Source of the DNA: Nitrosomonas sp. Nm33
Lineage (GTDB): Bacteria; Pseudomonadota; Gammaproteobacteria; Burkholderiales; Nitrosomonadaceae
NCBI RefSeq assembly: GCF_900107265.1
Contig: NZ_FNPJ01000008.1
Span: 1 to 64,000 of the forward strand
Direction of reading: 5' to 3'
Length of the DNA: 64,000 bases
The notes under the pieces: model-generated
Seen by the model: only the letters and a program-made list of their open reading frames with translations
Databases searched by the model: none
Told to the model about the DNA's origin: nothing
Translations under genes and position numbers: made by a program
Shown here: piece by piece, positions 1,095 through 62,907 of the stretch
How positions within the stretch are numbered: the stretch's first letter is position 1
Layout of the letters: every line of letters begins with the position of its first letter

Positions 1095-2009
1095 ATGAAT
1101 TTTCGTCATAAAACATTTATCACTAGTTTGCTTTTATTAGTGTTATCGATTGTTATGACCACAACTGCGTTGGCCAAAAGCGCCGAGCTAGAATTCAAAG
1201 CAATAGTAACAGAAATAAATCTGCCTTCCGAAGGTGAAAGCTCTGTTCGCGTCAAATTATTGAGCAACCTTGAGAATAATGTAGAAATTCCCGTCATGGT
1301 TACAGGGGCGACAGAAATTGAATCACATGGTGATGAAATAGCTTTATCTGAGTTAAGGGTCGGATATTTTGTCAAGATTAATGGTTTTTTTAGACCTTCT
1401 GGAATAGTAGTTGCTAATCAAATCGATGCGTTGGATAGCCACCTTGGAGAATACCGCATTCGAGGCTTGATCGAGCAGGTAGAAGAAGCGCCAAATGATA
1501 AGCTCGTTACAGTCTGGCACGACGATATCATGAGCGCTCCGACAGTGGAATTCATGCCAAATGGCAGGCGCATTACGGTAATCGACGTTCCTGTTCAAGT
1601 TGATACAAACACAGCTATTCGCAGGAGAGAGATGGGTGTCTCTCGCGGTTTGACTATGGAGGCATTGCAACCTGGGCAAAGCGTTGATATCAAGGGTGTA
1701 TTTAACAATGGTGTGTTTCTTGCCGAGCGCATCGAAGTAGGACACCGTCCTGAAGGGGAGATCAAGTTGAAGGGCACTGTAGCAAGCGTAGCGAATGGCT
1801 CGGTCAGTATCGTCAATGTTAGCGGCGTGAATATGGCTGTGGTTCCGAATGACACAACCAAAGTACGTGGAAATCTAGCCGTAGGAGAGCTTATCGAAGT
1901 AAAAGGCCATTTTAATAAAAATATGCAGGTAGTTGCCGAAGAAATCAAGGTCGACGTTAACCGTAACGGCCATACTGGCGACGATCATGATTTTAGCCGA
2001 AGATCGTGA
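1095..2009 (+). CDS. Secreted DUF5666 domain-containing protein
   Basis: A 304-residue protein. Residues 1-27 form a signal peptide ending in ALA, so the product should be exported. The rest reads as repeated small beta-barrel units of the DUF5666 type: VKLLSN...GATEI...LRVGYFVKINGFF...VVANQID near 45-110, a second unit about 120-215 (ALQPGQSVDIKGVFNNGVFLAERIEV), and a third about 220-290 (VGELIEVKGHFNKNMQVVAEEIKV). DUF5666 has no established biochemical role; metal or ligand binding by OB-like folds has been suggested, and nothing here decides it. The ATG is preceded by GGAG about 8 bases upstream. It sits alone between transposase debris and an OmpA-like fragment, and belongs to no obvious operon. 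Confidence 0.8.
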   Translation: MNFRHKTFITSLLLLVLSIVMTTTALAKSAELEFKAIVTEINLPSEGESSVRVKLLSNLENNVEIPVMVTGATEIESHGDEIALSELRVGYFVKINGFFRPSGIVVANQIDALDSHLGEYRIRGLIEQVEEAPNDKLVTVWHDDIMSAPTVEFMPNGRRITVIDVPVQVDTNTAIRRREMGVSRGLTMEALQPGQSVDIKGVFNNGVFLAERIEVGHRPEGEIKLKGTVASVANGSVSIVNVSGVNMAVVPNDTTKVRGNLAVGELIEVKGHFNKNMQVVAEEIKVDVNRNGHTGDDHDFSRRS

Positions 2010-2581: not shown

Positions 2582-4375
2582 ATGTCGAGCATTAAACACT
2601 TTTTAGCTTTACTACTCGTTCTACCTGGCCTGGTCTGGGCAGGTTCAAACGAAATAAGATTTGAACTCAATGATATGCCAGGTAACTGGTTCAGAAACAT
2701 CAATGGGCCAGTTGCTGGCTCAGGCTCATTAGGAGTTGGTACGCCAGGCGTCCGAGTTAAGTTCGGGATGGATTCAGAGACGGTGCATACCATGACCAGT
2801 CTGCTGTTCCCGAAGGGCGCCAAGAATATGCCGTTTGATACTGATGCGCAAAGGGGCAGTGCGGAAGTTGAATTGACTACACCCGGTTTATATGTATTTG
2901 TCTGTCAGGTTCACCCTTTTATGTTGGGTACCGTAATCGTGGATGATCCGGCCACAGAAGGATTGGATCTGGGAGATAACGTTACGTTGGCCAATGGCAT
3001 CACCGTGCCTACCAGCAGTGATTTGGCAACACGTTTATTGCGCGGTTTTCTAGTGTTGACCGAACCAGATAACTGGCAGAATTTTGCATCAGGAAAGCCA
3101 TGGCATATCAATTATCCGAATGTGGATGTACGTACCGATAGTGGTGTTGTTAATCTGGCCGAGGTTTTGACAGCACGCTATGATAACGATACTTCGCTGC
3201 CGGCACTTTTAACGCCGACTCAACAGGGAGTAGGGGAAGTGTGGGTCAATACCCAGTTTGAACTGACAGCTAACAAGAAAAAACCGGGAGCTGCCACAGC
3301 GGTGAATGCCACTAACTGGGAAGTGAGTCGCAAAGTATTTTTGCCGAACATCGATATGAACAATCCGCATAATATGTGGACCGATCGCGCACAAAATCTG
3401 ATTTATGTCACTGAATGGTTCAGTAGCAAGCTGACAATCTTTAATCGCCGCAATGGCCAGTTTGTAAGCCGGGTATCGGTGGGCGATGCACCAGCACATG
3501 TGATGACGCGCGTGGACACTGATCAACTACATGTTTCGATCAATGGTTCCAACGATCGGGAATCAGTAGTTGAACTATCGCCACTTAGCGCTAATGTGGA
3601 ACGGAGAATCGATATTGGCAGACCAGGTCCCCATGGACATTGGATGGGACATGATGGTGGCACTATGGTAACGCCCAATGTGTTTACGGGAGATTCAACG
3701 ATTTTTGATTTTGCTCGAGATGCCATCCGTAATATTGTTCCGACCGGCGGTCCTGAGGCTCATCCGATTGCCGCGGGTATGTTGCCAGATTCCAGTAAAT
3801 ACTATGTGGCTAATTTTCTTGACAGTACCATAACTGTGATTGAAACGGCAACTGGAAACATCTTGAAGACAATCAATTTACTACAAAATTATGATCCCGT
3901 TTCTGGAGATATAACTGGCCCAGTTGGCGCTTTGCCGATCCAAACACCAGTAAGTCCTGATGGGATTGCCATGGTTACGGCCAATATTCTGACCGATACC
4001 ATCACTATCATAAATACTAAAACTGATGAGCTAGTTGCCGCGCTTCCTTGTGCCGCGGGTTGCCATGGCGTGCAGTTTGGCGCCAAAAATGGAGGCGGAT
4101 ATTATGCTTATGTGAGCAGTCAAGCAGCTAATGTATTGCAAGTAGTGGATATCGACCCAAATGGTGATGGCAATCCGGCTGACGCGGCAGTGATAGGCAG
4201 AGTTTTGCTGACACCGGGTGCAAACACAGCTATGGATGACACTATTACAGCTTACTCAGGAATGGGTGGGCAAGGGGTGCTGGCTGTTCCTGTGGTTTAC
4301 AATGGCTGGGTGCAGAATTTGCCCCAGGAATGGAAAGACCAATTGACGGTGAAGCAGCGCGATCCGCTGAAATAA
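2582..4375 (+). CDS. Secreted amicyanin-type cupredoxin fused to a beta-propeller, copy 1
   Basis: 597 residues. Signal peptide 1-20 (cut after VWA). Residues 21-122 form a blue-copper domain with His69 (TVHT) and the loop C108-x2-H111-x2-M114 (CQVHPFM), the amicyanin spacing. A linker (about 125-250) leads to a YVTN-type beta-propeller (about 255-575) with strands such as NLIYVTEW, KYYVANFLDSTITVIETATG and DTITIINTKTDE. His residues recur at turn positions: H263, H306, H351, H353, H357, H394 and H495. Residues 490-495 (CAAGCH) form a CX3CH motif. The domains suggest a periplasmic redox protein, but the substrate is unknown. Domain order is opposite to nitrous oxide reductase, so it is not NosZ. 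ATG follows GAGGACATC. A near-identical paralogue lies downstream. Confidence 0.8.
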   Translation: MSSIKHFLALLLVLPGLVWAGSNEIRFELNDMPGNWFRNINGPVAGSGSLGVGTPGVRVKFGMDSETVHTMTSLLFPKGAKNMPFDTDAQRGSAEVELTTPGLYVFVCQVHPFMLGTVIVDDPATEGLDLGDNVTLANGITVPTSSDLATRLLRGFLVLTEPDNWQNFASGKPWHINYPNVDVRTDSGVVNLAEVLTARYDNDTSLPALLTPTQQGVGEVWVNTQFELTANKKKPGAATAVNATNWEVSRKVFLPNIDMNNPHNMWTDRAQNLIYVTEWFSSKLTIFNRRNGQFVSRVSVGDAPAHVMTRVDTDQLHVSINGSNDRESVVELSPLSANVERRIDIGRPGPHGHWMGHDGGTMVTPNVFTGDSTIFDFARDAIRNIVPTGGPEAHPIAAGMLPDSSKYYVANFLDSTITVIETATGNILKTINLLQNYDPVSGDITGPVGALPIQTPVSPDGIAMVTANILTDTITIINTKTDELVAALPCAAGCHGVQFGAKNGGGYYAYVSSQAANVLQVVDIDPNGDGNPADAAVIGRVLLTPGANTAMDDTITAYSGMGGQGVLAVPVVYNGWVQNLPQEWKDQLTVKQRDPLK

Positions 4376-4385
4376 TTGTTTTATC

Positions 4386-4412
4386 AAGGTTTTTGCACTA
4401 AAAACCTTTTTT
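4386..4412 (+). terminator. Rho-independent terminator after cupredoxin copy 1
   Basis: AAGGTTTTT (4386-4394), loop GCACT, AAAAACCTT (4400-4408), then a T run to 4412. A perfect 9-bp stem lying 11 bases after the stop codon. Confidence 0.85.
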
Positions 4413-4530
4413 CGGGGGAGGATGATCGGCTCAGGTTAATAGATTGTGCCCGATCCTTCTCCCATCGGACATGTAGTAGCTTCTACTGATATTTCTTCGT
4501 ATTCAAGTTGGCTTTGCAGTTTCTATCTTG

Positions 4531-4700
4531 TGTGTTGTAGCTCCTTGGAATGGAACGACCATTCCGTGTCGTTGCGCCTTCCCTGGCACTCGCAAAACCG
4601 CACACTCCATCCCGTACAGCTGAAATCTAGGTTTATCTAGGTTTGTTGTCTATCAAATATCAATGCATCCCGCACAACTGAAATCTAGATTTATTGTCTA
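4531..4700 (-). repeat. Truncated copy of the palindromic element at the duplication junction
   Basis: From 4545 the sequence follows copy 1 from its core onward (GGAATGGAACGACCATTCC, then TCGTTGCGCCTTCCCTGGC and CCGCACACTCCATCCC). The left half is absent: the flank is the tail of the first unit. The outer end occurs twice, as CAGCTGAAATCTAGGTTTAT and again as CAACTGAAATCTAGATTTAT, from a short local duplication. Confidence 0.7.
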
Positions 4701-4863
4701 TTAAGTATCGATGGTGCAAACAATCGAAGTCCTGGACGAAAAAATGGCTGAGTTCATTTATCGCCCAGATCGATGCCACGGATTCCGATCCTTGCCTCAT
4801 GAGTACGAGGCACTAGAAAATAGATAGTGGCATTTTAGCTTTTAATTTAAAAGTGAGGAAATC

Positions 4864-6660
4864 ATGTTTACCATTAAACACTTTTTAACTTTACTAGTTG
4901 TTCTATCTGGCTTGGTGGTTTGGGCAGGTTTAACAAGTTCAAACGAAATAAGATTTGAACTCAATGATATGCCAGGTAACTGGTTCAGAAACACCAATGG
5001 GCCAGTTGCTGGCTCAGGCTCATTAGGAATTGGTACGCCTGGCGTCCGAGTTAAGTTCGGGATGGATTCTGATACCGTACATACTATGACCAGTTTGCTG
5101 TTTCCGAAGGGCGCCCAGAATATGCCGTTTGATACTGATGCGCAAAAGGGCAGTGCGGAAGTTGAATTGACCACACCCGGTTTATATGTATTTGTCTGTC
5201 AGGTTCACCCTTTTATGTTGGGTACCGTAATCGTGGATGATCCAGCTACAGAAGGATTGGATCTGGGAGATAACGTTACGTTGGCCAATGGCATCACTGT
5301 GCCTACCAGCAGTGATTTGGCAACACGTTTATTGCGCGGTTTTCTAGTATTGACCGAACCAGGTAACTGGCAGAATTTTGCATCAGGAAAGCCGTGGCAT
5401 ATCAATTATCCGAATGTGAATGTACGTACCGATAGCGGTGTTGTTAATCTGGCTGAGGTTTTGACAGCACGCTATGGTAACGATATTACGCTACCGGCAC
5501 TTTTAACGCCGTCTCAACAAGGGGTAGGGGAAGTGTGGGTTAATACCCAGTTTGAATTGACAGCCAACAAGAAAAAACCGGGGGCTGCCACAGCAGTGAA
5601 TGCCACTGATTGGCAAGTGAGTCGCAAAGTGTTTTTGCAGATGAACAACCCGCATAATATGTGGACCGATCGCGCACAAAATCTGATTTTTGCCACTGAA
5701 TGGTTTAGTAGCAGGCTGACAATCTTTGATCGCCGCAGTGGCCAGTCTGTAGATCGGGTATCGGTGGGTGATGCACCGGCACATGTGATGACGCGTGTAG
5801 ACACCGATCAACTCCATGTTTCGATCAATGGTTCCAACGATCGGAACTCAGTAGTTGAACTATCGCCACTTGGCCGTAATGTGGAACGGAGAATCGATAT
5901 TGGCAGACCAGGTCCCCATGGGCATTGGATGGGACATGATGGCGGCACCATGGTAACGCCCAATGTGTTCACGGGGGACTCAACAATTTTTGATTTTGCT
6001 CGAGATGGCATACGTAATATTGTTCCGACCGGCGGTCCTGAGGCTCATCCGATTGCCACGGGTATGATGCCAGATTCCAGTAAATACTATGTGGCTAATT
6101 TTCTCGACAGTACCATAACTGTGATTGAAACGGCAACTGGAAACATCTTGAAAACAATCAATCTACTGCAAAATTATGATCCTGTTTCCGGACAAATAAC
6201 TGGCCCAGTTGGCGCTTTGCCGATCCAAACACCAGTAAGTCCTGATGGGATTGCCATGGTCACGGCCAATATTCTGACCGATACCATCACTATCATAAAT
6301 ACCAAAACTGATGAGCTGGTCGCCGCACTTCCTTGTGCCGCTGGCTGCCATGGCGTGCAGTTTGGCGCCAAAAAAGGAGGTGGATATTATGCTCATGTGA
6401 GCAGTCAGTCAGCTAATGTATTGCAAGTAGTGGATATCGACCCAAATGGTGATGGCAATCCGGCTGACGCAGCACTAGTAGGCAGAGTTTTGCTGACACC
6501 GGGTGCAAACACAGCCATGGATGACACTATTACAGCTCACTCAGGAATGGGTGGGCAAGGGGTGCTGGGTGTTCCTGTGGTTTACAATGGCTGGGTGCAA
6601 AAATTGCCCCAGGAATGGAAAGACCAATTGACTGTGAAGCAGCGCGATCCACTGAAATAA
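4864..6660 (+). CDS. Secreted amicyanin-type cupredoxin fused to a beta-propeller, copy 2
   Basis: 598 residues, about nine tenths identical to the gene at 2582 and its tandem duplicate. It keeps the signal peptide (cut after VWA, residue 21), the copper ligands (His73, Cys112, His115, Met118), the propeller His positions and the CAAGCH motif. Differences: three extra residues after the signal peptide (GLTSSNEIR against GSNEIR), a short in-frame deletion where copy 1 has LPNIDMNNPH and this has LQMNNPH, and scattered substitutions on propeller surface strands. Both reading frames are intact, suggesting that both copies are under selection or that the duplication is recent. The upstream leader is almost the same as in copy 1, so both genes probably share regulation. 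Confidence 0.8.
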   Translation: MFTIKHFLTLLVVLSGLVVWAGLTSSNEIRFELNDMPGNWFRNTNGPVAGSGSLGIGTPGVRVKFGMDSDTVHTMTSLLFPKGAQNMPFDTDAQKGSAEVELTTPGLYVFVCQVHPFMLGTVIVDDPATEGLDLGDNVTLANGITVPTSSDLATRLLRGFLVLTEPGNWQNFASGKPWHINYPNVNVRTDSGVVNLAEVLTARYGNDITLPALLTPSQQGVGEVWVNTQFELTANKKKPGAATAVNATDWQVSRKVFLQMNNPHNMWTDRAQNLIFATEWFSSRLTIFDRRSGQSVDRVSVGDAPAHVMTRVDTDQLHVSINGSNDRNSVVELSPLGRNVERRIDIGRPGPHGHWMGHDGGTMVTPNVFTGDSTIFDFARDGIRNIVPTGGPEAHPIATGMMPDSSKYYVANFLDSTITVIETATGNILKTINLLQNYDPVSGQITGPVGALPIQTPVSPDGIAMVTANILTDTITIINTKTDELVAALPCAAGCHGVQFGAKKGGGYYAHVSSQSANVLQVVDIDPNGDGNPADAALVGRVLLTPGANTAMDDTITAHSGMGGQGVLGVPVVYNGWVQKLPQEWKDQLTVKQRDPLK

Positions 6661-20279: not shown

Positions 20280-22973
20280 ATGAAGCAAGAAAAAATTACT
20301 CTTTCTCAACTCGAAAACTTTCTGTTCAAGGCCGCTGACATCCTGCGCGGCAAGATGGACGCCAGTGAATTCAAGGAATTCATCTTCGGCATGCTGTTTA
20401 TCAAGCGCCTGTCCGATGAATTCGACCGCAGGCGTGAGATACTGCGCGATACCACCTTTGCGCACCTGAAGGACCAGCCCGAGCTGCTGGAGGAACTGCT
20501 CAACGACAAGATCTCCTACGGCGACACCTTCTTCGTACCGCCACGTGCGCGTTGGCACGAGAGCTGGAATGACCAGGAAGACAATGAAGTGCCGCCGCTC
20601 AAGCATCTCAAGCATGATATTGGCGCCATGCTCAACAAGGCCATCGCCGCCATCGAGGAGGAGAACGATGCACTCGCCGGGGTGCTGAAGAGCAATATCG
20701 ATTTCAATGCGGTCAAGGGCAAGACCAAGATTCCCGACCAGAAATGGAAAGACCTGCTCGACCACTTCAACCAGCCTCAGTTCGTGCTGGTTAACGACAA
20801 CTTTGAGTTTCCCGATCTGCTGGGCGCGGCCTACGAATACCTGATCAAGTATTTTGCCGACAGCGCCGGCAAGAAGGGCGGCGAGTTCTACACGCCCGCC
20901 GAGGTGGTGCGGCTGCTGGTGCAGCTTACCAAGCCTCGGGCAGGGAATACCGTGTACGATCCCACGGCGGGTTCGGGCGGTTTTCTCATTCAGGCGCATC
21001 AATACGTCGAAGAGCAGGGCCAAGACCCCAACGATCTGGCCCTCTACGGCCAGGATTCTAACGGCACGGTCTGGTCCATTTGTAACATGAACATGATCTT
21101 GCACAACATCACCCGCTTCACCATTGAAAATGGCGATACGCTGGAAGATCCTTTGATTCTGGAAAACAGCCAGCCGCGCAAGTTCGATCGCGTGCTCGCT
21201 AACCCGCCGTTTTCGCAGAATTACAGCCGCACCAACATGCAGTTCGCCAGCCGTTTCCGTGAGTTCTGTCCGGAAACCGGCAAGAAGGCCGACCTCATGT
21301 TCGTGCAACACATGATCGCCAGCCTCAAGTCCGATGGCCACATGGCCACCATTATGCCCCACGGTGTGCTGTTCCGCGGCGGCAAAGAAAAGCTCATCCG
21401 CGAACTCTTGATTAATGACGGCATCATTGAGGCCATTATCAGCTTGCCGCCCGGTCTGTTCTACGGCACTGGCATCCCGGCTTGTGTGCTGGTAGTCAAC
21501 AAGAGCAAGCCCGACGCGCTGCGTAACAAGGTGCTGTTCATCAACGCCGACCGCGAATACGCCGAGGGCAAGAACCAGAACAAGCTACGCCCGGAAGACA
21601 TCGAAAAGATCGACTACGTCTTCACTCACAAGCTCACCATTCCCAAATACAGTCGACTGGTAGACAAGGACGAGATCGTCAATCAGCACGACTACAACCT
21701 CAATATCCGCCGCTATGTGGACAATACCCCTGAGCCAGAGCCGGAAGACGTGCAGGCCCACCTGATCGGCGGTATCCCGCAGGTCGAGGTCGCCGCCAAA
21801 CAGAGCGAGTTCGACAAGTTCGGCGTACAGCCCGAAATCTTCTTCGAGCCGCTGCGCCCCAACTACTTTGCCTTCCGCGCCATGCTCGATACCAAGCCTG
21901 CTATCAAAACCATACTGGAGGCGGATGCGAATTTGCAGGTCAAGCTTGCCGCTCACTACAGCACGCTGGAACAGTGGTGGCAGGTGGCGCAGCACGACTT
22001 CGCGCAACTGCGCGAAGGGCGCAAGCTGCCCGAGGTGCGCTCTGAGCTGCTCGCCACGCTCAAACAAAAACTCCAGCCACTGGACGTGCTGGACGAATTC
22101 AAGAGCGCGGGTGTTTTCGTCAACTGGTGGCAGGTCATCCGCTATGATCTGAAGACTGTCATCTCCATCGGCTGGCACCACACCCTGATTCCCGATAGCT
22201 ACCTCATCGCCGAATACTTTCAGGCCGAGGCCGACGAAATTGAATCGCTGGAGGGAAAATCCAACGAAATCCAGGGCGAACTGACTGAGGCCGTCGAAGC
22301 CGCTGCCGAAGCGGCGTGCTACGAACCGGAAGAAGCCGAAGGTGAGGAAGGGGAAGCCAAACTTACCACCGCCGCTATCAAGAAATACCTGAAGGCACTA
22401 ATCGATGACCTCGCCGATGGCAAGACCGACTCCGCACTGAAGGAGCGCAGGAATTACGAAGAGCTACGCGATGGCATCAGCGCCATTGAAACCCGCATCA
22501 AAACCCACAAAACCGTACTGAAGACCAGGCAGGATGAACTGGAACTGAAGCTGCGCCTCAAGCGTACTGGCGGTGATGAAGCCAAGGCGGAAACAAAGGA
22601 ACTCATCGCCCAGGCCGAGGCCGCGATGCAAGGCTTGAACCCGGCAGTGAAGAAAGACAAGAAAAAATGCACCGCGCTAGAAAAAAACAAGGCGACACTC
22701 ATGCTACGCCTCGCCCGCATCGATGACCTGTTAAAGGCCATCGGCGGCCAGAGCAGCGAGCAAGACGCCAAGCGCCTGATCCTCAGAAAACTGCACGACA
22801 TCGCCAACAAGGAGCTGCTGCGCTACCTCAACGCCGAAAAGCGCGCTCTGTATGCCATCGTCGAGAACCTGTGGGACAAGTATGCGGTGTCGAGTCAGAC
22901 GCTGGAGGCAGAACGGCAAGAGTCTTTGAACATCCTAAATGGCTTCTTAGCCAAACTTAAATACCTAGGATGA
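20280..22973 (+). CDS. hsdM: Type I restriction-modification DNA methyltransferase subunit
   Basis: 897 residues, longer than the typical 500-800. The N-terminal helical domain (about 5-160) carries [20 protein letters not shown] and [19 protein letters not shown]. The methyltransferase core has [19 protein letters not shown], motif [11 protein letters not shown] (about 226), LYGQDSN, and catalytic motif IV NPPF (about 307), marking N6-adenine methylation using S-adenosylmethionine. It continues to [12 protein letters not shown] and [20 protein letters not shown]. From about 640 to the end there is a long charged, largely helical extension (coiled-coil-like). GC-rich compared with flanking genes. 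hsdS starts five bases downstream. Confidence 0.95.
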
Positions 22974-22978
22974 TTTGA

Positions 22979-24187
22979 ATGAGTGCTTGGAAACTCCGAA
23001 AACTCATCGATTTAGCCGAATATATCAATGGCTATTCTTTTGCACCTGAAGATTGGGGTACAGAAGGGTTACCGATCGTCCGAATCGAACAACTAAAAAA
23101 TCCAGGCGCACCAACTGACTATTACGCCGGAAGGCTTCCGGAGAAAAATATTATCGACGACGGAGATCTAGTTTTTTCTTGGAGCGCGTCCCTTTTCCTG
23201 CGGATCTGGAATGATGGGAAGGCCGCACTTAATCAACACCTATTCAAGGTTGTCGAAAAGGCTGGAGTTAACCGGACATTTCTCAAGTCATTTATCGAGT
23301 TCTACTTGCCGGATTTAATGAAGGCTTCGCATGGCTCGACAATGCAGCATATCACCCGTAAGGAGCTGAAAAATTTTGCTGCACAGTTTCCGGTCGAAGA
23401 GGCAGATCAAAAAAATATTGCAGATGTTATTACTGCTCTCGACCACATTATCGAGCAAACTGAGGCGATCATCGCCAAGCAGCAGCGCATAAAGACCGGC
23501 CTGATGCAGGACCTGCTCACTAAGGGCATCGACGAGCACGGCAATATCCGCTCTGAAGCCACCCACGCTTTCAAGGATTCCCCGCTGGGGCGGATTCCAA
23601 TGGAGTGGAATTCCCGGACTATTCGGAATAGTGCAGAAGTATGTAACAACCTGCGAAAGCCTTTATCTGCACAGGTGCGGGAAACTATGCAGGGCGACTA
23701 CCCCTACTATGGGCCTACTGGGGTGCTCGATTACATTGATAAATTTCGTGTGAATGGAAAATACGTTTTGATTGGAGAAGACGGCGACCATTTTCTGAAG
23801 TGGGACAAGCAGGAAATGACAATTCTGATCAATGACCCATGTAATGTTAATAACCACGCGCACATACTAAAAGGAAACGATGCAGTTCTCACGGATTGGC
23901 TTCATTTTTATTTTTTGCATCGTGACATCACTTACTACCTCACTCGTCAAGGAGCAGGAAGATTCAAGTTAAACAAGGCAACATTGCTAGATCTGCCGTT
24001 AGCCGCTCCCGAATCGGTAGTTGAGCAGGGACGCATTTGTGAAGTAATCGAGAAGGTCCGAGTTGATCAATCCGATACACAAAGTCGTCGTCACAAGCTT
24101 CAGTCTATTCGCGTCGGTTTACTCGCAGACTTGCTTTCCGGGCGTCGGCGTGTGACTAACCTGCTCATGCAAGCTACGCCACAGTAA
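22979..24187 (+). CDS. hsdS: Type I restriction-modification specificity subunit
   Basis: 402 residues, two target-recognition domains joined by conserved helices. TRD1 spans about 1-140. The central helix about 143-180 includes ITALDHIIEQTEAIIAKQQR and IKTGLMQDLLTKGIDEHGNIR. TRD2 begins at DSPLGRIPMEWNSRTI and runs to about 350, and the C-terminal helix ends in RVGLLADLLSGRRRV. HsdS chooses the bipartite DNA site for the HsdM/HsdR complex. It is visibly less GC-rich than hsdM and hsdR, as expected for an exchangeable specificity gene. The target sequence cannot be deduced. Confidence 0.92.
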   Translation: MSAWKLRKLIDLAEYINGYSFAPEDWGTEGLPIVRIEQLKNPGAPTDYYAGRLPEKNIIDDGDLVFSWSASLFLRIWNDGKAALNQHLFKVVEKAGVNRTFLKSFIEFYLPDLMKASHGSTMQHITRKELKNFAAQFPVEEADQKNIADVITALDHIIEQTEAIIAKQQRIKTGLMQDLLTKGIDEHGNIRSEATHAFKDSPLGRIPMEWNSRTIRNSAEVCNNLRKPLSAQVRETMQGDYPYYGPTGVLDYIDKFRVNGKYVLIGEDGDHFLKWDKQEMTILINDPCNVNNHAHILKGNDAVLTDWLHFYFLHRDITYYLTRQGAGRFKLNKATLLDLPLAAPESVVEQGRICEVIEKVRVDQSDTQSRRHKLQSIRVGLLADLLSGRRRVTNLLMQATPQ

Positions 24188-24201
24188 CAAGGACACCGCA
24201 T

Positions 24202-24393
24202 GGCCTCTACCAGGACAAGACCCTCGCCCATATCCGTCTCGACGAACGCAATCACGTCGAAAAGCCGTTGCTTGATCAGTTGGCCCGGCTGGGCTGGGAG
24301 GTGTGGGACCTGGAAATGAAGCTGGAACCAAGGCAAACCTTCTGTCAGAGCTTCGACCAGTTGGTGCTGGAGCAGATACACACGAGCTGGTGA
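24202..24393 (+). pseudogene. Relic of a second hsdR 5-prime end
   Basis: In one frame this reads LAHIRLDERNHVEKPLLDQL, then ARLGWEVWDLEMK, QTFCQSFDQLVLEQ and a stop at 24391. It corresponds to residues about 8-58 of the intact HsdR at 26588 (IRLDERNHVEKPLLDQLAGL, GWEVWDLE, SFRQSFDEVVLE). Nucleotide identity is only about three quarters, so this is not a fresh duplicate but the start of a different hsdR allele, truncated. It follows hsdS directly, exactly where hsdR would be expected. Confidence 0.75.
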
Positions 24394-24479
24394 AGGTAAT
24401 AACCCCTACAGGCGATCGTCGTGCGACCAGGTTACTGTTCGATAAACGAGATGTGGATGAGATGGCCATATCTAAATAA
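24384..24479 (+). pseudogene. C-terminal fragment of an excisionase-like DNA-binding protein
   Basis: A 31-codon frame reads ELVKVITPTGDRRATRLLF, then DKRDVDEMAISK and a stop. The pattern TPTGDRRARRLLF-x-x-x-DV is the usual tail of small AlpA/excisionase-type winged helix proteins. It has no start of its own and overlaps the end of the hsdR relic. It indicates a recombination scar between hsdS and the next gene. Confidence 0.4.
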
Positions 24480-24500
24480 ACACAATTAGGTCAAATTAAA

Positions 24501-26591
24501 ATGGATGAGCCAAAATCACTTGATAGTCTTTTTAAGGAAAAAATATTTCGCATCCCGGATTATCAGCGTGGGTATGCCTGGCAACGTGAGCAATTAACCG
24601 ACTTTTGGGAAGATTTGGTTAATCTTGCGGAGAATCGCTCACACTATACCGGTGTATTGACTCTTAAAGCGATTCCAAAAGACCAAATTGCGAAAGAGGA
24701 AAAAGAGTTTTGGCTTGTCGATGATCACTCTTATCAGCTTTACCATATTGTGGATGGGCAGCAGCGTTTAACGACCTTTGTAATCTTCTTGCAGGCATTT
24801 GCTGATTTCATTAAGGCACTGCCTGAGAATACCAGAAAGTCAGATAAAGAAATATATATTACTGACAGTTTAAACATAGCCGCTCTTCAGGAGCGCTACC
24901 TATTCAAAGTAAAGCCGACCGGCGATCAGTTTCGCACCTATAAATTCGGCTATACCAAGGACAATCCAAGTTATGATTATTTGCGTTACCGTATTTTAGG
25001 GGAATCTGGGTCCGGATCCATTCAGGAGACCTTCTACACACTCAATCTTTCCAACGCCAAGCGTTACTTCCACGAGCAGCTTGCTGAGCTGCATTCAAAA
25101 GAAAGTATTGAAGGTTTGCAGTCTGTCTATAAAACCCTCGTAAAACGATTCCTGTTTAACGAATATATTATTCGTGACGAGTTTGATGTATTCGTTGCTT
25201 TTGAAACTATGAACAATCGGGGTAAAAAACTTTCCGATCTGGAATTGTTGAAAAATCGCCTCATCTACCTGACCACGCTATACAGTGATGGCGAGCTGGA
25301 TACAGCAAGCCGTTCCAATCTGAGAGATTCAATCAATAATGCCTGGAAAGAGATTTATCACCAGCTGGGACGAAATAAGCAGCATCCGCTGAACGATGAT
25401 GATTTCTTGAAGGCGCACTGGTCGATGTACTTCAAGTACTCACGCCAAAAGGGAAATGACTATATCCGCTTTTTACTCGATGAAGAGTTTGCGCCGAAAC
25501 GCGTATACAAGAAAGCTGAACGCGAGGTCGAATTAGAGGCGGTAGAGGAGGTGCATGAAGAAATAGAGATTGATGATGACAATGTCGAGAACTCATTGGA
25601 GCAGGCTGCAACTGTTTCCAGTGTTGACTTACCGGCCAGCAGCATTCGCGACTATGTGAACAGTCTGAAATCCTCAGTGGTCTACTGGTTTAAATCTTTC
25701 TACCCAGCCATGGTTGATGGCATTTCAGATGAGGAACGACTGTGGATCGAACGACTTAATCGTCTTGGCATGATGTATTTTAGGCCGTTGGTTATGTCCA
25801 TCTTGAAAAACGTGGGAGATGAAAAGGAGAGAATAAGAGCATTTCAGCATATCGAGCGATTCATTTTTATTGTGTTCAGGCTTGGTACTGCAAATGCCAG
25901 TTATCAAAGTAGCGTCTATTACAACGCTGCCAGAGACGTTGACAGAGAGCAGCTGACTGTTGACGAACTTGGCGAAAAGCTAAAAGATTCATCCGACTAT
26001 TTGTTTTGGGATGACGGCAGTTTTTCGGAGGAAGAGTTTTACACCATTCTTTCCAAGAAATTCAAGAATGGTACTGGGTATTACGGCTGGAATGGTCTTC
26101 GCTATTTTTTATATGAATATGAATTGGACCTTCTGGAAGATAGCCGTCAACAGAAAGTAAGCTGGGAATCACTTTTGAAGACAGGCAAGGACAAGATTTC
26201 TATTGAGCATATCTACCCACAAACTGAAACAGATGAGTGGGCTGCTGCATTAGAAGGTTTTTCTGAATTGGCGAAAAAGCATTACTCTGGCAGTCTCGGC
26301 AATCTGTTGCTTTTGTCAGCCTCGATTAACTCCTCGTTACAGAATGATTTTTTTTCGAGCAAGAAGAAGCCTAAATATGACAAAGCAGGAAATAAGCTGC
26401 GCAATGGATATTCTGATGGTTCACACTCTGAGATCGAGGTATCAAGCAGCAAAACATGGGGCGCAAATCATATTCGCACGCGCGGCCTGAAATTGCTGGA
26501 CTTCATGGAGAAGCGCTGGGACATCAAATTTTCCAGCAAGAAAGCAAAGCGGAAACTTTTGTTTCTTGATGGGGAGAAAGAAGAAGAATGA
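24501..26591 (+). CDS. DUF262-DUF1524 protein (GmrSD-like nuclease candidate)
   Basis: 696 residues. The N-terminal DUF262 domain (about 5-300) has the hallmark IPDYQRGYAW (18-26) with QLTDFWEDL, then VDGQQRLTTFVIFL (about 85-98), and FETMNNRGKKLSDLELLKNRL. An acidic stretch lies about 335-370. The C-terminal DUF1524 part has KISIEHIYPQ (about 566-575) and LGNLLLLSASINSSLQND, the HNH-like His and Asn positions. In GmrSD, BrxU and SspE such domain pairs sense and cut phage DNA; a defence role here is inferred. It occupies the hsdS-hsdR gap often used by accessory R-linked genes. Its stop overlaps the hsdR start (ATGA), so translation is coupled. It is less GC-rich than hsdR. Confidence 0.85.
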   Translation: MDEPKSLDSLFKEKIFRIPDYQRGYAWQREQLTDFWEDLVNLAENRSHYTGVLTLKAIPKDQIAKEEKEFWLVDDHSYQLYHIVDGQQRLTTFVIFLQAFADFIKALPENTRKSDKEIYITDSLNIAALQERYLFKVKPTGDQFRTYKFGYTKDNPSYDYLRYRILGESGSGSIQETFYTLNLSNAKRYFHEQLAELHSKESIEGLQSVYKTLVKRFLFNEYIIRDEFDVFVAFETMNNRGKKLSDLELLKNRLIYLTTLYSDGELDTASRSNLRDSINNAWKEIYHQLGRNKQHPLNDDDFLKAHWSMYFKYSRQKGNDYIRFLLDEEFAPKRVYKKAEREVELEAVEEVHEEIEIDDDNVENSLEQAATVSSVDLPASSIRDYVNSLKSSVVYWFKSFYPAMVDGISDEERLWIERLNRLGMMYFRPLVMSILKNVGDEKERIRAFQHIERFIFIVFRLGTANASYQSSVYYNAARDVDREQLTVDELGEKLKDSSDYLFWDDGSFSEEEFYTILSKKFKNGTGYYGWNGLRYFLYEYELDLLEDSRQQKVSWESLLKTGKDKISIEHIYPQTETDEWAAALEGFSELAKKHYSGSLGNLLLLSASINSSLQNDFFSSKKKPKYDKAGNKLRNGYSDGSHSEIEVSSSKTWGANHIRTRGLKLLDFMEKRWDIKFSSKKAKRKLLFLDGEKEEE

Positions 26592-29500
26592 TGCCAAGCG
26601 ATAAAACACCGCAACTTATCCGCCTCGACGAGCGCAACCACGTTGAGAAGCCGCTGCTCGACCAGTTGGCCGGGCTGGGTTGGGAGGTGTGGGACCTGGA
26701 GAGCAAGCAGGCACCGAAAGACAGCTTCCGCCAAAGTTTCGACGAGGTGGTACTGGAGTCGGTGCTGCGCGAGCAGCTTAAGATAATCAACCCCTGGCTG
26801 GAAGACGATCAGGTGGAGGAGATGATCAAGCGCCTCATCGCCAGCTTCCCTGGTTCCAACCTACTTGAAAACAACCGCCATGTGCTGAACCTACTGCTGG
26901 AAAACACCAGCGTCGCGGAGAACCGAAAAAATGGCGAGAAGAGCCCGACGGTGCGGTACATCGACTTCACGCACATCAATAACAACCGCTTCATCGCCGT
27001 ATGCCAGTTCAAGGTGCGCATCCTTGGCACCGAGCACCATATTTGCCCGGACATCGTGCTGTTCCTGAACGGGTTGCCGGTGGTGGTGATTGAGTGCAAG
27101 TCACCCAGGGTGAAGGAGCCGATCCCCGAGGCCATCGACCAGATGCTGCGCTACAGCGAGCGGCGCGGCGCCAAGGGCGAGGGCAGCGCACCGCTGTTCT
27201 ACTTCAACCAGTTCGTGATAGTCACCTGCCGCAACGAGGCTAAGTTCGGCACCATCACCACACACATTGAGAAGCACTTCTACCGCTGGTCCGACCCTTG
27301 GCCGCGCACCGTGGAGGATCTGAGCCACGGCGGCAGCAGTCCCAACGACCAGCAGCGGCTGGCAGCGGGCATGCTGGACCGGCAGAACCTGCTCGACATT
27401 ATCCGCACCTTCACCATTTTCTCGGAATCGGATAAGGGCGATCGGATTAAAATCGTCGGACGCTATCAGCAGTTCCGCGCCGTAAAGCTAGCGGTGCAGC
27501 GCTTGCTCACCGGCAAGACGCCGCGGACGCGCAGCGGCATCGTCTGGCATACCCAGGGCTCGGGCAAGTCACTGACCATGATGTTCATGGTGCGCGAGAT
27601 GTACCGCCACGCTCAGCTTTCCAAGTGGAAGGTGGTGTTCGTCACCGACCGCACGCAACTGGAGCAGCAGCTCGGCGAGACTGGCGGCAGAATCGGTTTC
27701 ACGGTGAAGGTCGCGGACAGCATAGTCAAGCTAAAGGAATTGCTGCGCAGCGATTCCTCCGACTTGGTGATGGCAATGATTCAGAAATTCCAGGATCGAG
27801 ATCTGGAAGAGATGTTTCCAGAGCTGAATACAAGCCATAACATTCTGGTGATGACCGACGAAGCGCATCGCTCCCAGTACACACGGTTGGGAGCGAACCT
27901 GGACAAGGCTATTCCCAATTCGGCACGTATCGGCTACACCGGCACACCGATAGACAAGACCGAAAAAGTGTTTGGCGACTATATCGACAAATACACCATG
28001 CGGCAAGCCATAGAGGACGGTGTGACACTGGAAATCGTCTATGAAGGCCGTACCCACAACGCTGAGGCGCCTGATCAGGAAGGCATGGATGCCGCCTTCG
28101 CCGATGTGTTCAGCGACTACAATTTGCAACAGCGGCTGGAAATTATGGGCTACGGCTCGCGCGATGCCTATCTGGAGGCCAAGTCGACCATTGAAGCCAA
28201 AGCGCGTGACATGGTGGCGCATTATCTGGAGCATGTGTTCCCCAATGGTTTCAAGGCGCAGGTAGTGGCGACTTCGCGCGAGGCTGCGGTGCGCTACAAG
28301 GCGGCGCTGGCGGAGGCAACCCAGAAGCTGGAGCAGGCCAATCCGCTAAATCTCGACTTGGCGCGCCTAAAGAAGCTCAAGACTGATGTGGTGATCTCCG
28401 GCAACCACAACGACCTGCCGCACATCAAGGAGTTCACTGATAGCAGCCGCCACGCGCGCACTATCAAGAGCTTCAAGCTGCCGTTCGACAAGGAAGATGC
28501 AGGGGTGACCGGCGATATCGGCATTGTGATCGTCAACAACATGCTGCTCACCGGATTCGATGCCCCCATCGAGCAGGTGATGTATCTGGACAAGGTGATT
28601 ATCGCTCACAACCTACTGCAAGCGATTGCGCGCGTGAACCGTGTGGCGGGCTCGGCCAAGGAAAAAGGCTTTATTGTCGATTATGTCGGCATTGGTCACC
28701 ACCTCAAGAAGGCCATCGACAACTACGACGAACGCGAACAGAAGGAGGTATTAGATACGCTGAGCTTTCCCGATGACGAGTTGCTAGAGCTGCAAGCAGA
28801 TTACAAGGCCATCATGGCGCTACTGGAGAAGCATGGCCTCACGAACCTGAATGACCATGACGCTTTTTTTGATCTGTTCTACGACGAAGATATCCGCTTC
28901 GAGGTCATGCTGGCCTACAAGAAGCTGACGCGCAGCCTGGATCTGGTTTTCCCCGCCAAGAAGGCGCTTGAATATCTTCCTGACTATAACGCACTGACGG
29001 AAATCAACGTACTGGCCGGACGGCATTTGAATGACCAGCGACTGAGTATGAAGGGTATTCCGCCCAAGCTGCGGACGCTGACGGACCAATATCTGGCGTC
29101 CAAAGGCATCGAACAGAAGGTCAAGCCGATCTCGATCCTTGACGAGGATTTCGAGAGTGAAGTTGCCAAACGTAAACGCACCAAAACCAAGGCGGCCCAA
29201 GTGGAGCACGCCATCCGCCATCATCTGGATATCGAACTGAACGACGACCCGGAACTACAAGCCTCATTCTCTAAAGCGCTGGCAGACATCCTGCAAGCAT
29301 TCAAAGACAACTGGCAGAAGATCTACGAAGAACTGGAGAAACTACGTAAGCGCATCATCAATGCGGAGAGCGAGCCTACCTATGGTCTGCACAAGAAAAA
29401 GCAAATGCCGTTTTTCCGCATGTTTCAAGCTGAACTAAGTGCTATATGGGAGCAACAACCAGGCTATCTGGGGAAACCTGACGAGCGAATTGCGCTATTG

Positions 29501-29728
29501 GTAAATTTGACGCAACAGATCTATTTGGTAGTAGAGCGTGAGTTAAAGCTGGCCAGCTTCTGGGAGAGTGTGCCTGCCCGCAATAAGTTGAAAGCAGAAA
29601 TCCAGCAAATTTTACTTTCAGAAACATTTCACACATTGCCGAATTTAATAGCTAAGCGTAACCAGATCATTTCGCGGGTGATGGAAATCGCCGAGAAGAA
29701 CAACGACCGAATTATGTATGCCAGTTGA
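26588..29728 (+). CDS. hsdR: Type I restriction endonuclease subunit R
   Basis: 1046 residues. The N-terminal nuclease domain has IDFTHINNNRFIAVCQFKV, DIVLFLNGLPVVVIECKSP (about residues 155-172), in which the E-x-K of the PD-(D/E)xK site is visible. The helicase/translocase part has Walker A IVWHTQGSGKSLTMMF (about 318-330), motif II MTDEAHRSQY (about 421-430), IGYTGTPIDKTEKVFGDYI, and MLLTGFDAPIEQVMYLDK followed by LLQAIARVNR. HsdR uses ATP to pull DNA past the bound HsdM2S complex and cuts remotely. The C-terminal helical region contacts HsdM. Two in-frame ATGs stand side by side at 26588 and 26591. Confidence 0.95.
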   Translation: MMPSDKTPQLIRLDERNHVEKPLLDQLAGLGWEVWDLESKQAPKDSFRQSFDEVVLESVLREQLKIINPWLEDDQVEEMIKRLIASFPGSNLLENNRHVLNLLLENTSVAENRKNGEKSPTVRYIDFTHINNNRFIAVCQFKVRILGTEHHICPDIVLFLNGLPVVVIECKSPRVKEPIPEAIDQMLRYSERRGAKGEGSAPLFYFNQFVIVTCRNEAKFGTITTHIEKHFYRWSDPWPRTVEDLSHGGSSPNDQQRLAAGMLDRQNLLDIIRTFTIFSESDKGDRIKIVGRYQQFRAVKLAVQRLLTGKTPRTRSGIVWHTQGSGKSLTMMFMVREMYRHAQLSKWKVVFVTDRTQLEQQLGETGGRIGFTVKVADSIVKLKELLRSDSSDLVMAMIQKFQDRDLEEMFPELNTSHNILVMTDEAHRSQYTRLGANLDKAIPNSARIGYTGTPIDKTEKVFGDYIDKYTMRQAIEDGVTLEIVYEGRTHNAEAPDQEGMDAAFADVFSDYNLQQRLEIMGYGSRDAYLEAKSTIEAKARDMVAHYLEHVFPNGFKAQVVATSREAAVRYKAALAEATQKLEQANPLNLDLARLKKLKTDVVISGNHNDLPHIKEFTDSSRHARTIKSFKLPFDKEDAGVTGDIGIVIVNNMLLTGFDAPIEQVMYLDKVIIAHNLLQAIARVNRVAGSAKEKGFIVDYVGIGHHLKKAIDNYDEREQKEVLDTLSFPDDELLELQADYKAIMALLEKHGLTNLNDHDAFFDLFYDEDIRFEVMLAYKKLTRSLDLVFPAKKALEYLPDYNALTEINVLAGRHLNDQRLSMKGIPPKLRTLTDQYLASKGIEQKVKPISILDEDFESEVAKRKRTKTKAAQVEHAIRHHLDIELNDDPELQASFSKALADILQAFKDNWQKIYEELEKLRKRIINAESEPTYGLHKKKQMPFFRMFQAELSAIWEQQPGYLGKPDERIALLVNLTQQIYLVVERELKLASFWESVPARNKLKAEIQQILLSETFHTLPNLIAKRNQIISRVMEIAEKNNDRIMYAS

Positions 29729-30404
29729 CATGGAATTGAATTACAAAATCGTCTTCTCGCGCCGCAAAACGCTCACCATCACGGTGGAACGGGATCGTTC
29801 CGTCGTTGTAACTGCACCCACAGGCACGTCACCGCAGAAAATCCATCAGATTGTGGAATCGCGCAAACTATGGATCTATGAGAAGACCCGGCACGCGCAG
29901 AAATACAACCCATTGCCTCACCCTCCTGGTAAGGAGCTGATAACCGGTGAATCGCTGCTGTACTTGGGGCGGAATTATCGTATTGAGCTGGTGGAGGGTA
30001 GTGGGGAGATTCGGTTTGAGCAGAAGTTCATCGTTCCTCGCATGCTTGCAAACAAATCACCAGCTTTACGAAATTGGTTTATTGCACGGGCTGAGGACAA
30101 GATTCTGCCGCGTGTGGCCATGCATGCCAAGAATTTGGGCGTGAAGTTCAAAGAAGCCAAGATCGGTTATGGCAAATATCGCTGGGGCTCATGTACACCA
30201 AGTGATAACGTGATTCTGAACTGGCGGCTGATCAAGTCCCCGATGTTCGTGATCGATTACGTGTTAGTGCATGAATTGGCTCATCTGATCGAGCAAAACC
30301 ATACACCGCGTTTCTGGAATATTGTGCGAGTGCAAATCCCTGCCATGGAGAAGGCAAAGGCGTGGTTACTCAAGAATGGGGTGCTGCTGGAGCAAGATTT
30401 GTAA
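29718..30404 (+). CDS. YgjP-like zinc metallopeptidase (DUF45)
   Basis: 228 residues. KIVFSRRKTLTITVERDRSVVVTAP at the start, then ITGESLLYLGRNYRIELV, WGSCTPSDNVILNWRLI, and the zinc site VHELAHLIEQNHTPRFWNIV (HELAH at about 184-188), all typical of YgjP/DUF45 predicted metal-dependent hydrolases. The gene overlaps the end of hsdR by 11 bases; another ATG is available at 29730. DUF45 genes are often found directly after hsdR in type I loci, so it belongs to this cassette, but its role there is not established. This is the last gene of the island. Confidence 0.88.
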   Translation: MPVDMELNYKIVFSRRKTLTITVERDRSVVVTAPTGTSPQKIHQIVESRKLWIYEKTRHAQKYNPLPHPPGKELITGESLLYLGRNYRIELVEGSGEIRFEQKFIVPRMLANKSPALRNWFIARAEDKILPRVAMHAKNLGVKFKEAKIGYGKYRWGSCTPSDNVILNWRLIKSPMFVIDYVLVHELAHLIEQNHTPRFWNIVRVQIPAMEKAKAWLLKNGVLLEQDL

Positions 30405-31993: not shown

Positions 31994-32028
31994 TTATCCA
32001 CAATTTTTGTGGATAAGTTTGTGGTTAA
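31994..32028. promoter_or_regulatory. Head-to-head DnaA boxes (inverted pair) plus a third near-box
   Basis: TTATCCACAA (31994-32003), three T residues, TTGTGGATAA (32007-32016): each arm holds the strict DnaA box TTATCCACA, on opposite strands. A third, TTGTGGTTAA (32019-32028), differs from the box by one base and has the orientation of the second. A DnaA-binding role is inferred from the consensus only. A plain hairpin is the alternative, though no T run follows. Confidence 0.6.
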
Positions 32029-32111
32029 TTTGTAAATATCATAGTTAAGATAGCTGTTTATAATATCTTTTTCTGATTTGATTAAATTTTATACATATAG
32101 AAATATTGTTT

Positions 32112-32144
32112 ATAATCAATATATTAATATTATATATTGATTAT
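32112..32144. repeat. AT-only palindrome with 12-bp arms
   Basis: ATAATCAATATA (32112-32123) and TATATTGATTAT (32133-32144) pair perfectly around a 9-base loop. It lies about 100 bases from the DnaA-box pair and could be an easily melted segment or a binding site. Confidence 0.6.
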
Positions 32145-32275
32145 CAGAATGAATTTAATTGATATTAAATATTACTTAATGGATTAATGTGGATTGTTTT
32201 ATATTGTCAAGAAATATTTTTTCTAATTCATATATTATCTTTCCATTCGATGGTGATACCGATCCAAGCTATTTT

Positions 32276-32932
32276 TTAATGTAAGGTAAGCAGAAAGATG
32301 CTTTCCTGCAATTGACTCAGTCCACGTTCTCGAAAGCGTTGATCCTGTGCGAGTACATCTAATTGAGCCAATAGCCGTATCTCAGCGTATTCTTGGTAGA
32401 GTGCTTCTACTTCGCTGGGAGAAACAGCAAACGGTGGGCCAATCATTTCTGACTGGGGATAGTCAAAAGTAATGAGTAGAATTTTTGTTGCGGGTGGTAA
32501 GATGTTCTGCAGATGGCATACATAACTTTTACGTATTTCTGGTGGCAGTGCAACCAGTGATGCACGGTCATAAACTGCACTTACCTTCGCCAGATCGTTC
32601 TTCCTTAAATCAAAAAAATTACCGCATAGGATACTGATACCATTAGCACTATAGCGATCGAATTTTCCACTGGTCATGTGATGAGGAGAGAGTCTGTTTT
32701 CTTCGAAGAATGCATGCACAGCGATAGCGCTCAATTCAACCCCGAGCACTGAGTGTTTTTGTTCGTGCAGCCATAGCATATCGCGGCTTTTGCCACACAG
32801 GGGGACAAATACCTCACTACCATGAGCAAGATGTAACTCCTGCCAGTATTGACGTAAATATGGATTAATCTCGTTCTGGTGGAAACCAATATCTCTGTGT
32901 TTCCATCGATCTAGCCAATAATCATTTTCCAT
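32276..32932 (-). CDS. tpm: Thiopurine S-methyltransferase-like enzyme
   Basis: 218 residues, the normal length. The family start is clear: YWLDRWKHRDIGFHQNEINPYL, then VFVPLCGKSRDMLWLHEQKHSVLGVELS (S-adenosylmethionine-binding motif I), and VSAVYDRASLVALPPEIRKSYVCHLQNILPP. The closest described bacterial role is methylation of thiopurines or of tellurite and selenium oxyanions; the natural substrate here is unknown. Cytoplasmic and monocistronic, with palindromic REP-like sequences upstream. Confidence 0.9.
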   Translation of the reverse strand: MENDYWLDRWKHRDIGFHQNEINPYLRQYWQELHLAHGSEVFVPLCGKSRDMLWLHEQKHSVLGVELSAIAVHAFFEENRLSPHHMTSGKFDRYSANGISILCGNFFDLRKNDLAKVSAVYDRASLVALPPEIRKSYVCHLQNILPPATKILLITFDYPQSEMIGPPFAVSPSEVEALYQEYAEIRLLAQLDVLAQDQRFRERGLSQLQESIFLLTLH

Positions 32933-33018
32933 ATGTTATTTACTAAGCCTTATTTAACAAACAACGATCAATTAGTTTAAAAGCTGATCATGCTTTAATC
33001 TCTTCGGGTTTAATTCCT

Positions 33019-33091
33019 CGCCCCTTGGGGCGTAAGCTGGTTGAAAGCCTTCAGCTTGAAGAGCGCATTTAATACTTCGCCACTTACGGCG
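33019..33091. repeat. Pair of REP-like GC-rich palindromes
   Basis: CGCCCCTTGGGGCG (33019-33032) and CGCC-ACTTAC-GGCG (33078-33091) each follow TTTAAT and a pyrimidine-rich CT segment, so they look like two copies of one short palindromic unit. They lie upstream of tpm in a very AT-rich context. Confidence 0.45.
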
Positions 33092-33256
33092 CGGGGTGCT
33101 TTATTTAGTCGTAAACCAATAAATTGAATTAAATATTCATTTTGCGAAACAGATTTAGTTGTCACCATTAAAATCATTATCAAGCCCAAGGCTAGCAAAT
33201 TACCGATTTATTGCTTAAATCGCTGCGTTATTCCTGCCACTGAGGCCTCAATGAAG

Positions 33257-33338
33257 TGATGTGGTTCAATAGATCCGGACGCTCTACTTAAGACTATTTT
33301 CCCTTAACTGGGTTGTCCGGGTCTATTGGACCACATCA
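33257..33338. repeat. 82-bp inverted-repeat element or collapsed IS ends
   Basis: The left end is TGATGTGGTTCAATAGATCC then GGAC (33257-33280). The right end, reverse-complemented (33338-33315), is TGATGTGGTCCAATAGACCC then GGAC. Only two of 24 positions differ. The interior is 34 bases with no coding capacity, as if the two ends of an IS had been joined by an internal deletion. Confidence 0.65.
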
Positions 33339-33387
33339 TCCTGTGGCGACGATTGCATTCATCAGACGATCTAGATTAAACATTGCC

Positions 33388-62868: not shown

Positions 62869-62907
62869 AAAGTATAAGAATTAAAATTCTATAAGAACAT
62901 AGTTAAT

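Follow-up and report, generated by a model that had tools for sequence, protein, structure and literature searches.

Two tandem genes for a cupredoxin–propeller protein

The first 64,000 nucleotides of contig NZ_FNPJ01000008.1 from Nitrosomonas sp. Nm33 (assembly GCF_900107265.1), called the window in what follows, carry two tandem genes for a protein in which an N-terminal cupredoxin domain is joined to a beta-propeller (Table 1). The proteins belong to a family that is real and conserved and, it appears, undescribed; no description of it was recognised in a literature search of open-licence PMC papers. Its hallmarks are a predicted type 1 (T1) copper site, a putative ring of conserved histidines and glutamines in the propeller and, in a sister form, fusion to multicopper oxidase (MCO) domains. 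An initial annotation of this DNA had read 2582–6660 as a single protein; the span actually holds two genes, at 2582–4375 and 4864–6660. The residues named in that annotation (H69, C108, H111, M114, H263, H306, H351, H353, H357, H394 and H495) are all present in the first product, copy 1, with exact numbering, and the signal peptide noted there is indeed a hydrophobic, Sec-like leader that opens copy 1, as judged by eye.

The source genome holds five full family copies: the window pair, a second pair (C72) that is 60–61% identical to the window protein, and a long form (C145) that is 51% identical to it. Two short family fragments, C57:2659–2913 (L039) and C120:6473–6616 (L040), are probably remnants of further copies. 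Transposase- or recombinase-like open reading frames (ORFs) lie close to the C72 pair (L037, 4391–10347; by eye). The closest named matches outside the source genome, at 77–78% identity, are from Nitrosomonas sp. Nm51 and N. marina Nm22.

Relatives come from a contig scan of one genome per species (84,980 species), in which 269 places were confirmed and the best 80 of them used. These 80 loci, the two window copies and the three further source-genome copies make up an 85-sequence alignment; it includes some near-identical or fragmentary rows, and counts are given over non-gapped rows. Thinning at 93% identity left a 67-row set, which served for the glutamine counts and for an AlphaFold2 model of copy 1 (mean predicted local distance difference test score, pLDDT, 93.0; predicted template modelling score, pTM, 0.92).

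Table 1. Features of the locus in window coordinates (aa, amino acids; residue numbers are those of copy 1)
Feature	Position	Strand	Evidence
Copy 1, cupredoxin–propeller protein, 597 aa	2582–4375	+	ORF; AlphaFold2 model, pLDDT 93, pTM 0.92
Copy 2, tandem paralogue, 598 aa, 93% identical to copy 1, ligand residues unchanged	4864–6660	+	ORF; alignment
Copy 1 Sec-like signal peptide, residues 1–20	2582–2641	+	Hydrophobic leader by eye; model pLDDT <50 there
Copy 1 cupredoxin domain, residues 24–121, amicyanin-type CxxHxxM loop	2651–2944	+	Conservation; profile search
T1 ligands of copy 1: H69, C108, H111, M114	2786, 2903, 2912, 2921		
Copy 1 linker, partly helical, residues 122–212	2945–3217	+	Model
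Copy 1 seven-bladed propeller, residues 213–570	3218–4291	+	Model; fold search
H263, blade 1 ring position (NNPHNMW)	3368–3370	+	84/84 non-gapped
H306, blade 2 ring position (APAHVM)	3497–3499	+	84/84 non-gapped
H351 and H353, blade 3 ring position (PHGHW)	3632–3640	+	84/84 and 83/84
H394, blade 4, not family-wide	3761–3763	+	60/84
Q454, blade 5 ring position (LPIQTPV)	3941–3943	+	67/67
C490-x3-C494-H495; H495 is the blade 6 ring position	4049–4066	+	H495 83/83, C490 78/83, C494 79/83
Q564, blade 7 ring position (GGQGVL)	4271–4273	+	64/64 non-gapped, of 67 rows
DUF5666 protein, upstream neighbour	1095–2009	+	Family search; recurs close to family genes of other Nitrosomonas and of Nitrospira

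The cupredoxin domain

The blue-copper domain with an H...C-x2-H-x2-M ligand set, as first proposed, is borne out by the family, in which all four ligands are invariant at non-gapped positions (H69, 81/81; C108, H111 and M114, 83/83 each). In the model they sit on a cupredoxin barrel with strands from residue 24 to 120. Sequence evidence thus supports a type 1 copper site with an amicyanin loop length in the N-terminal domain of copy 1. A profile search with this domain led to pseudoazurin 2ux6 (E 1.6e-5), and the type 1 ligands are shared with both amicyanin and pseudoazurin. The CxxHxxM loop is one that we take to be amicyanin-like, but the domain differs from amicyanin in being fused to a propeller and in scoring far below the NCBIfam cut-off for that family (TIGR02657, 17.7 and 17.9 bits against 110.2). 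The Pfam Copper-bind model likewise gives 13.7–14.7 bits for the window copies, below its cut-off of 21.2.

The propeller and its histidine/glutamine ring

The model consists of the cupredoxin, a partly helical linker and a propeller for which the blade count, at first judged by eye, comes out as seven. The last blade pairs N-terminal outer strands (219–223, 238–242 and 247–252) with a C-terminal inner strand (566–569). In a fold search the propeller matched 1l0q with Z 38.6 (2.1 Å over 296 residues), hydrazine synthase beta with Z 33.1 (2.4 Å, 295 residues) and entries of nitrous oxide reductase (NosZ) with Z 30–32 (2.7–2.9 Å, 305–312 residues), among them 5i5j (Z 32.3, 2.8 Å, 308 residues) and 1qni (Z 30.9, 2.7 Å, 311 residues). 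YVTN, lactonase and hydrazine-synthase-beta propellers superpose as well as NosZ or better (Z 33–39), and NosZ is therefore not singled out by fold alone.

Searches with hidden Markov models against YVTN families, suggested at the outset, gave mostly weak matches. The short repeat beta_rpt_yvtn is the sole sequence model that copy 1 passes (29.1 bits against 27.85). The window copies fall below the gathering cut-off of YNCE (PF21783; 25.2 and 25.3 against 27.1), which the C72 paralogue passes with 28.4, and copy 1 reaches 41.3 bits against a cut-off of 287.3 for PQQ_ABC_repeats. The YncE/YVTN/PQQ-associated propellers (PF21783, TIGR03866) are nonetheless the best match of the propeller in both sequence and fold; they differ in that the solved propellers matched have no type 1 cupredoxin and the segments of 1l0q that were seen have no histidine ring. 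A plastocyanin–YVTN fusion adjoins the family relative L137 in a Nitrosopumilus metagenome-assembled genome (MAG). This protein (L137, 11432–12916) resembles the window family in having a cupredoxin followed by a propeller, yet is distinct from it, exceeding the cut-offs of the Pfam models Copper-bind, YNCE and Lactonase.

Seven propeller histidines were listed in the initial annotation as a possible metal site. Five of them are invariant or nearly so: H263, H306 and H351 (84/84 each), H353 (83/84) and H495 (83/83). The other two, H357 (66/84) and H394 (60/84), are poorly conserved and were dropped as site residues for that reason. Two glutamines complete the conserved set in the 67-row alignment, Q454 (67/67) and Q564 (64/64). 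The type 1 ligands and the five histidines are kept even in outliers, including a Methylocystis protein of 44% identity.

In the model, the five histidines and both glutamines lie at, or at most three residues from, the starts of innermost strands in blades 1, 2, 3, 5, 6 and 7 (Table 1). Such starts face one mouth of the central channel in a propeller. Six of the eight histidines of residues 210–570 fall within the 42 positions around the seven innermost-strand starts (hypergeometric P 4e-5), as do all five of the (near-)invariant ones (P 2e-5), the six-residue window of this test having been picked after the model was viewed. The predicted structure would thus place a ring at the axial mouth of the propeller, where it is a candidate metal or substrate site.

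Comparison with nitrous oxide reductase

In NosZ, the CuZ cluster is held by seven conserved propeller histidines. The initial annotation had suggested a domain-swapped analogue of this enzyme, and part of the likeness stands: NosZ of clades I and II and the clade III L-NosZ also combine a cupredoxin with a superposable seven-bladed propeller and have conserved histidines at innermost-strand starts, and the model would place the five histidines here at an axial mouth corresponding to the CuZ location. The NosZ-like set of seven does not stand, as the family has five (near-)invariant histidines plus Q454 and Q564. The cupredoxins differ too, that of the window protein being N-terminal and type 1 and that of NosZ being C-terminal and CuA; in place of the two cysteines and HxEM of CuA there is one cysteine in CxxHxxM.

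The NosZ segments with conserved histidines at like places are DLHHPH, IHG, NPHG, GPLHT, PGH and EPHD. Because a profile alignment was shifted by one blade, the blade register was taken by eye together with the unpermuted range of the fold match. In this register, blades 1, 2 and 6 have histidine in both families; blades 5 and 7 have histidine in NosZ and glutamine in the window family; blade 3 has PHGH in the window family and no histidine in NosZ; and blade 4 has histidine in NosZ and a variable residue in the window family.

Sequence models place the protein outside NosZ. The two window copies score 32.3 and 27.6 bits against a cut-off of 700 for L-NosZ (NF052460), and none of the remaining NosZ models matched them at E 1 or below. 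The maturation gene NosD (TIGR04247) was over cut-off in none of 15 genomes and had no match at all in the source genome; matches below cut-off occur in six of the 15, the best (125 bits) in Methanoperedens. With no CuA site, fewer propeller histidines, scores far below cut-off and no NosD over cut-off in the 15 genomes, membership in NosZ is rejected. NosZ is the closest analogy for the placement of the ring, yet the family is not a NosZ.

A fused paralogue and a probable split oxidase

In the long form of the family, two multicopper oxidase domains precede the cupredoxin–propeller unit. The C145 paralogue of the source genome has Cu-oxidase_3 and Cu-oxidase_2 over the Pfam cut-offs in this position; neither window copy has a Cu-oxidase domain at E up to 1. 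The gene directly upstream of the long form encodes another two-domain protein resembling an oxidase, here called the partner. The 80 listed loci include 12 long ORFs (at least 780 aa), nine of them with a complete partner, and with C145 these make ten pairs, one of them from an archaeon, Nitrosocosmicus (L124). The contig of L123 ends within the partner, and the long ORFs L125 and L127 lack MCO motifs; these three were left out.

The ten pairs were aligned to the oxidase of Methylocystis as reference. The partner keeps all four histidines of domain 1 (each 10/10); in its domain 2, the HLH and HCH motifs and the T1 cysteine and histidine are each present in 0/10, the first domain-2 histidine in 6/10 and the T1 methionine in 10/10. 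The fused protein is the complement: in domain 1, both HxH histidines are absent from all ten (gapped in L124), the first histidine of HDH is found in 3/10 and the last in 0/10, and in domain 2 all eight ligand positions are occupied in 10/10. Long form and partner thus hold the MCO ligands in halves on two genes at all ten loci. Two-domain laccases form their trinuclear site at the interface where domain 1 of a subunit meets domain 2 of its neighbour. As that site spans subunits, complete trinuclear sites would form here only from partner and fused protein together, and the complementary loss of ligands makes it probable that the trinuclear copper site is split between the two.

Two-domain (small) laccases are also the best PDB matches of the partner and of the intact Methylocystis oxidase. 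Partner and fused paralogue share with them a pair of cupredoxin domains that carry motifs for T1 and trinuclear ligands, but differ in that the ligand halves are on separate genes, one of which is fused to the cupredoxin–propeller. In Methylocystis rosea, an intact two-domain oxidase gene precedes an unfused cupredoxin–propeller, an arrangement that is perhaps the older state.

In a Nitrospira MAG (L113, 12735–16856), a multicopper oxidase gene is followed by a second family paralogue of 680 aa with all ring residues. On the Methylocystis plasmid (L149, 4496–5470), a simple YncE-family propeller lies beside the intact oxidase and the cupredoxin–propeller, and it has histidines at several innermost-strand starts (HNHN, PRH, PHF and SHG; by eye).

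Distribution and phylogeny

Family matches were found in 89 of 125 genomes of Nitrosomonadaceae (77 of the 99 good genomes). Labels at the best 80 of the 269 places are Nitrosomonas, Nitrosospira, Nitrospira, Nitrosocosmicus, Nitrososphaera, Nitrosopumilus, Methanoperedens, Methylomirabilota, Rokubacteria, Chloroflexi, Acidobacteriota and a few Proteobacteria without genus, many of them metagenome bins; the use of the best 80 makes this list of lineages a partial one. Among plasmids, two of 72,556 records, both of Methylocystis rosea, carry the 44% relative, annotated there as ‘hypothetical protein’. Viral contigs gave no relative with a single-protein query.

Subunit A of bacterial ammonia monooxygenase (AMO) or particulate methane monooxygenase (PF02461) was found in 13 of 31 genomes labelled other than Nitrosomonas or Nitrosospira, namely in 12 of the 16 labelled Nitrospira or Nitrospiraceae and in one Methylomirabilota. 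This set left out L114 and four loci with Proteobacteria, Betaproteobacteria or beta proteobacterium labels (L088, L091, L111 and L121); many of its genomes are fragmentary MAGs, in which binning errors are possible. Archaeal AmoA is present in four of the five archaeal genomes with the family, the exception being Methanoperedens. There is thus a link, though not an exclusive one, between the family and ammonia or methane oxidation.

As genomes without nitrosocyanin often carried the family and vice versa, the two were compared in 95 genomes (genera g1, g27 and g28; completeness at least 90%, contamination at most 5%; tables compiled by hand). Both genes occur in 47, the family only in 26, nitrosocyanin only in 17 and neither in five (G073, G019, G105, G141 and G142), with no significant association among these 95 genomes (Fisher P 0.31). 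Two genomes with weak or short matches only, G001 and G104, were scored as family-negative. In G073 there is in fact an open frame of 895 aa that matches the family twice, and recounting this genome as a carrier gives P 0.19; recounting G017 as well, on account of its broken long form, gives P 0.28. The family as a replacement for nitrosocyanin is not significant in any version. In G019 and G141, AMO is present with neither gene (for G141 by deduction).

In a tree built without bootstrap and with weak deep forks, the window pair forms a group of four rows with Nitrosomonas Nm51 and HKST-UBA151 (100 in the Shimodaira–Hasegawa-like approximate likelihood ratio test, SH-aLRT). A separate group of 31 rows (SH-aLRT 98) unites 28 other short forms from Nitrosomonas, Nitrosospira and Proteobacteria, including the C72 pair, with three rows from Nitrospira. 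This arrangement suggests that the family has moved by more than one horizontal transfer.

Neighbouring genes

Counted with a three-sequence profile, and with many flanks short, 24 of 84 loci have a DUF5666 protein within about 9 kb of the family gene; they belong to Nitrosomonas and Nitrospira. In Methylocystis, NnrS, a protein linked to nitric oxide (NO) metabolism, is encoded 4 kb downstream of the cupredoxin–propeller on the opposite strand.

Elsewhere in the window, 20280–30404 holds a block that resembles a type I restriction–modification system (by eye), with a large methylase, a specificity subunit, a DUF262-like protein, an HsdR-like helicase and a SprT-like peptidase. The segment 32000–36300, with raised GC (0.516 in 32001–36000) and ORFs of 652 and 219 aa of unfamiliar type, is possibly imported. 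By eye, 60997–63333 encodes a SulP-like transporter and, after it, two universal-stress-like proteins.

Proposed function and alternatives

Our preferred reading, held tentatively and at a little less than even confidence, is that of a periplasmic copper redox protein with a metal or substrate site in the propeller, from which electrons would reach a partner oxidase by way of the type 1 copper. The ring may bind a metal or the substrate in a CuZ-like place, with a different ligand set. The substrate would be oxidized at the propeller, and the N-terminal type 1 copper would relay single electrons. In the long form, these would go to the trinuclear copper site of a putative heteromer, where O2 would be reduced; the short stand-alone form would hand them to a separate oxidase or a cytochrome. 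This direction of flow seems the most likely because the sister form is fused to half an oxidase with the other half encoded upstream. Judged only from the carriers, the substrate is probably a small nitrogen compound.

Several observations weigh against this reading. Two blades of the ring have glutamine instead of histidine, and H394 is missing in many lineages. The ten oxidase pairs are related and, with partners 38–94% identical, do not amount to ten independent events; the model of the long form, from ten sequences, is poor (pLDDT 52). A motif scan of ORFs within 9 kb, in which many flanks were cut by contig ends, showed no MCO motif near the window copies and one near the gene in just three of the 70 listed loci without a fused oxidase (L097, L113 and L114). 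A further flag, at L083, was dropped as an overlapping reading frame. Finally, the well-assembled, AMO-bearing genomes G035, G036, G113 and G117 are without any family member, so the family is accessory rather than essential and cannot be a universal NO oxidase.

A copper or electron-transfer protein without catalytic activity, with the propeller as a docking scaffold and the ring in a structural role, is unlikely but deserves serious weight. YVTN propellers can act as scaffolds, and the close superposition of YVTN, lactonase and hydrazine-synthase-beta propellers fits this well. It does not readily explain why five histidines should be (near-)invariant down to about 50% identity across bacteria and archaea, when the alignment segments seen of 1l0q have no strand-start histidine and those of hydrazine synthase beta have one (by eye).

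A NosZ-like reductase, in which electrons would enter at the cupredoxin and a copper cluster of the propeller would reduce N2O or NO, is quite improbable. The ring is at the NosZ place, NosZ is among the structural matches, and to the weak L-NosZ matches can be added profile alignments with hhalign (probability 94 and E 9.5e-8 against seven NosZ and one L-NosZ; probability 67 and E 5e-5 against the lone L-NosZ). The alignment with the NosZ set is, however, the one shifted by a blade, and the one-cysteine type 1 site, the five conserved histidines in place of seven, the 32 bits against 700 and the lack of NosD over cut-off in 15 genomes, even with weaker matches in six of them, all argue otherwise; the fused oxidase domains suggest use of O2.

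The boldest form of the preferred reading, in which the family is the catalytic part of a new copper oxidase of nitrifiers and methanotrophs, and the ring binds copper and oxidizes NO, or a like nitrogen compound, to nitrite, with electrons leaving through the type 1 copper to a split heteromeric multicopper oxidase, is a long shot. Least credible of all is a haem–copper protein with c-type haem at C490-x3-C494-H495, a CX3CH present in most members (Table 1) but to our knowledge not a standard haem c motif, since both cysteines are lost together in four of 83 sequences (L086, L110, L116 and L138) and C490 alone in L096 while H495 is kept, which suggests that the cysteines are likely a disulphide, the simpler explanation.

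Significance

The appeal of the family lies in a NosZ-like ligand ring together with a genetic link to an oxidase type that reduces O2. A trinuclear site divided between related genes by complementary ligand loss would, if true, represent subunit specialisation of an unusual kind. The NO-oxidizing enzyme of ammonia oxidizers is described as unknown or unidentified in PMC6478695 and PMC13170337. If the NO-oxidation reading were true, the family would be one candidate, not a universal one, for the NO step in lineages without nitrosocyanin, such as comammox Nitrospira. As a secreted copper family common to ammonia-oxidizing bacteria, AMO-bearing Nitrospira, ammonia-oxidizing archaea and methane oxidizers, it provides a concrete gene with which to test the conversion of NO to nitrite.

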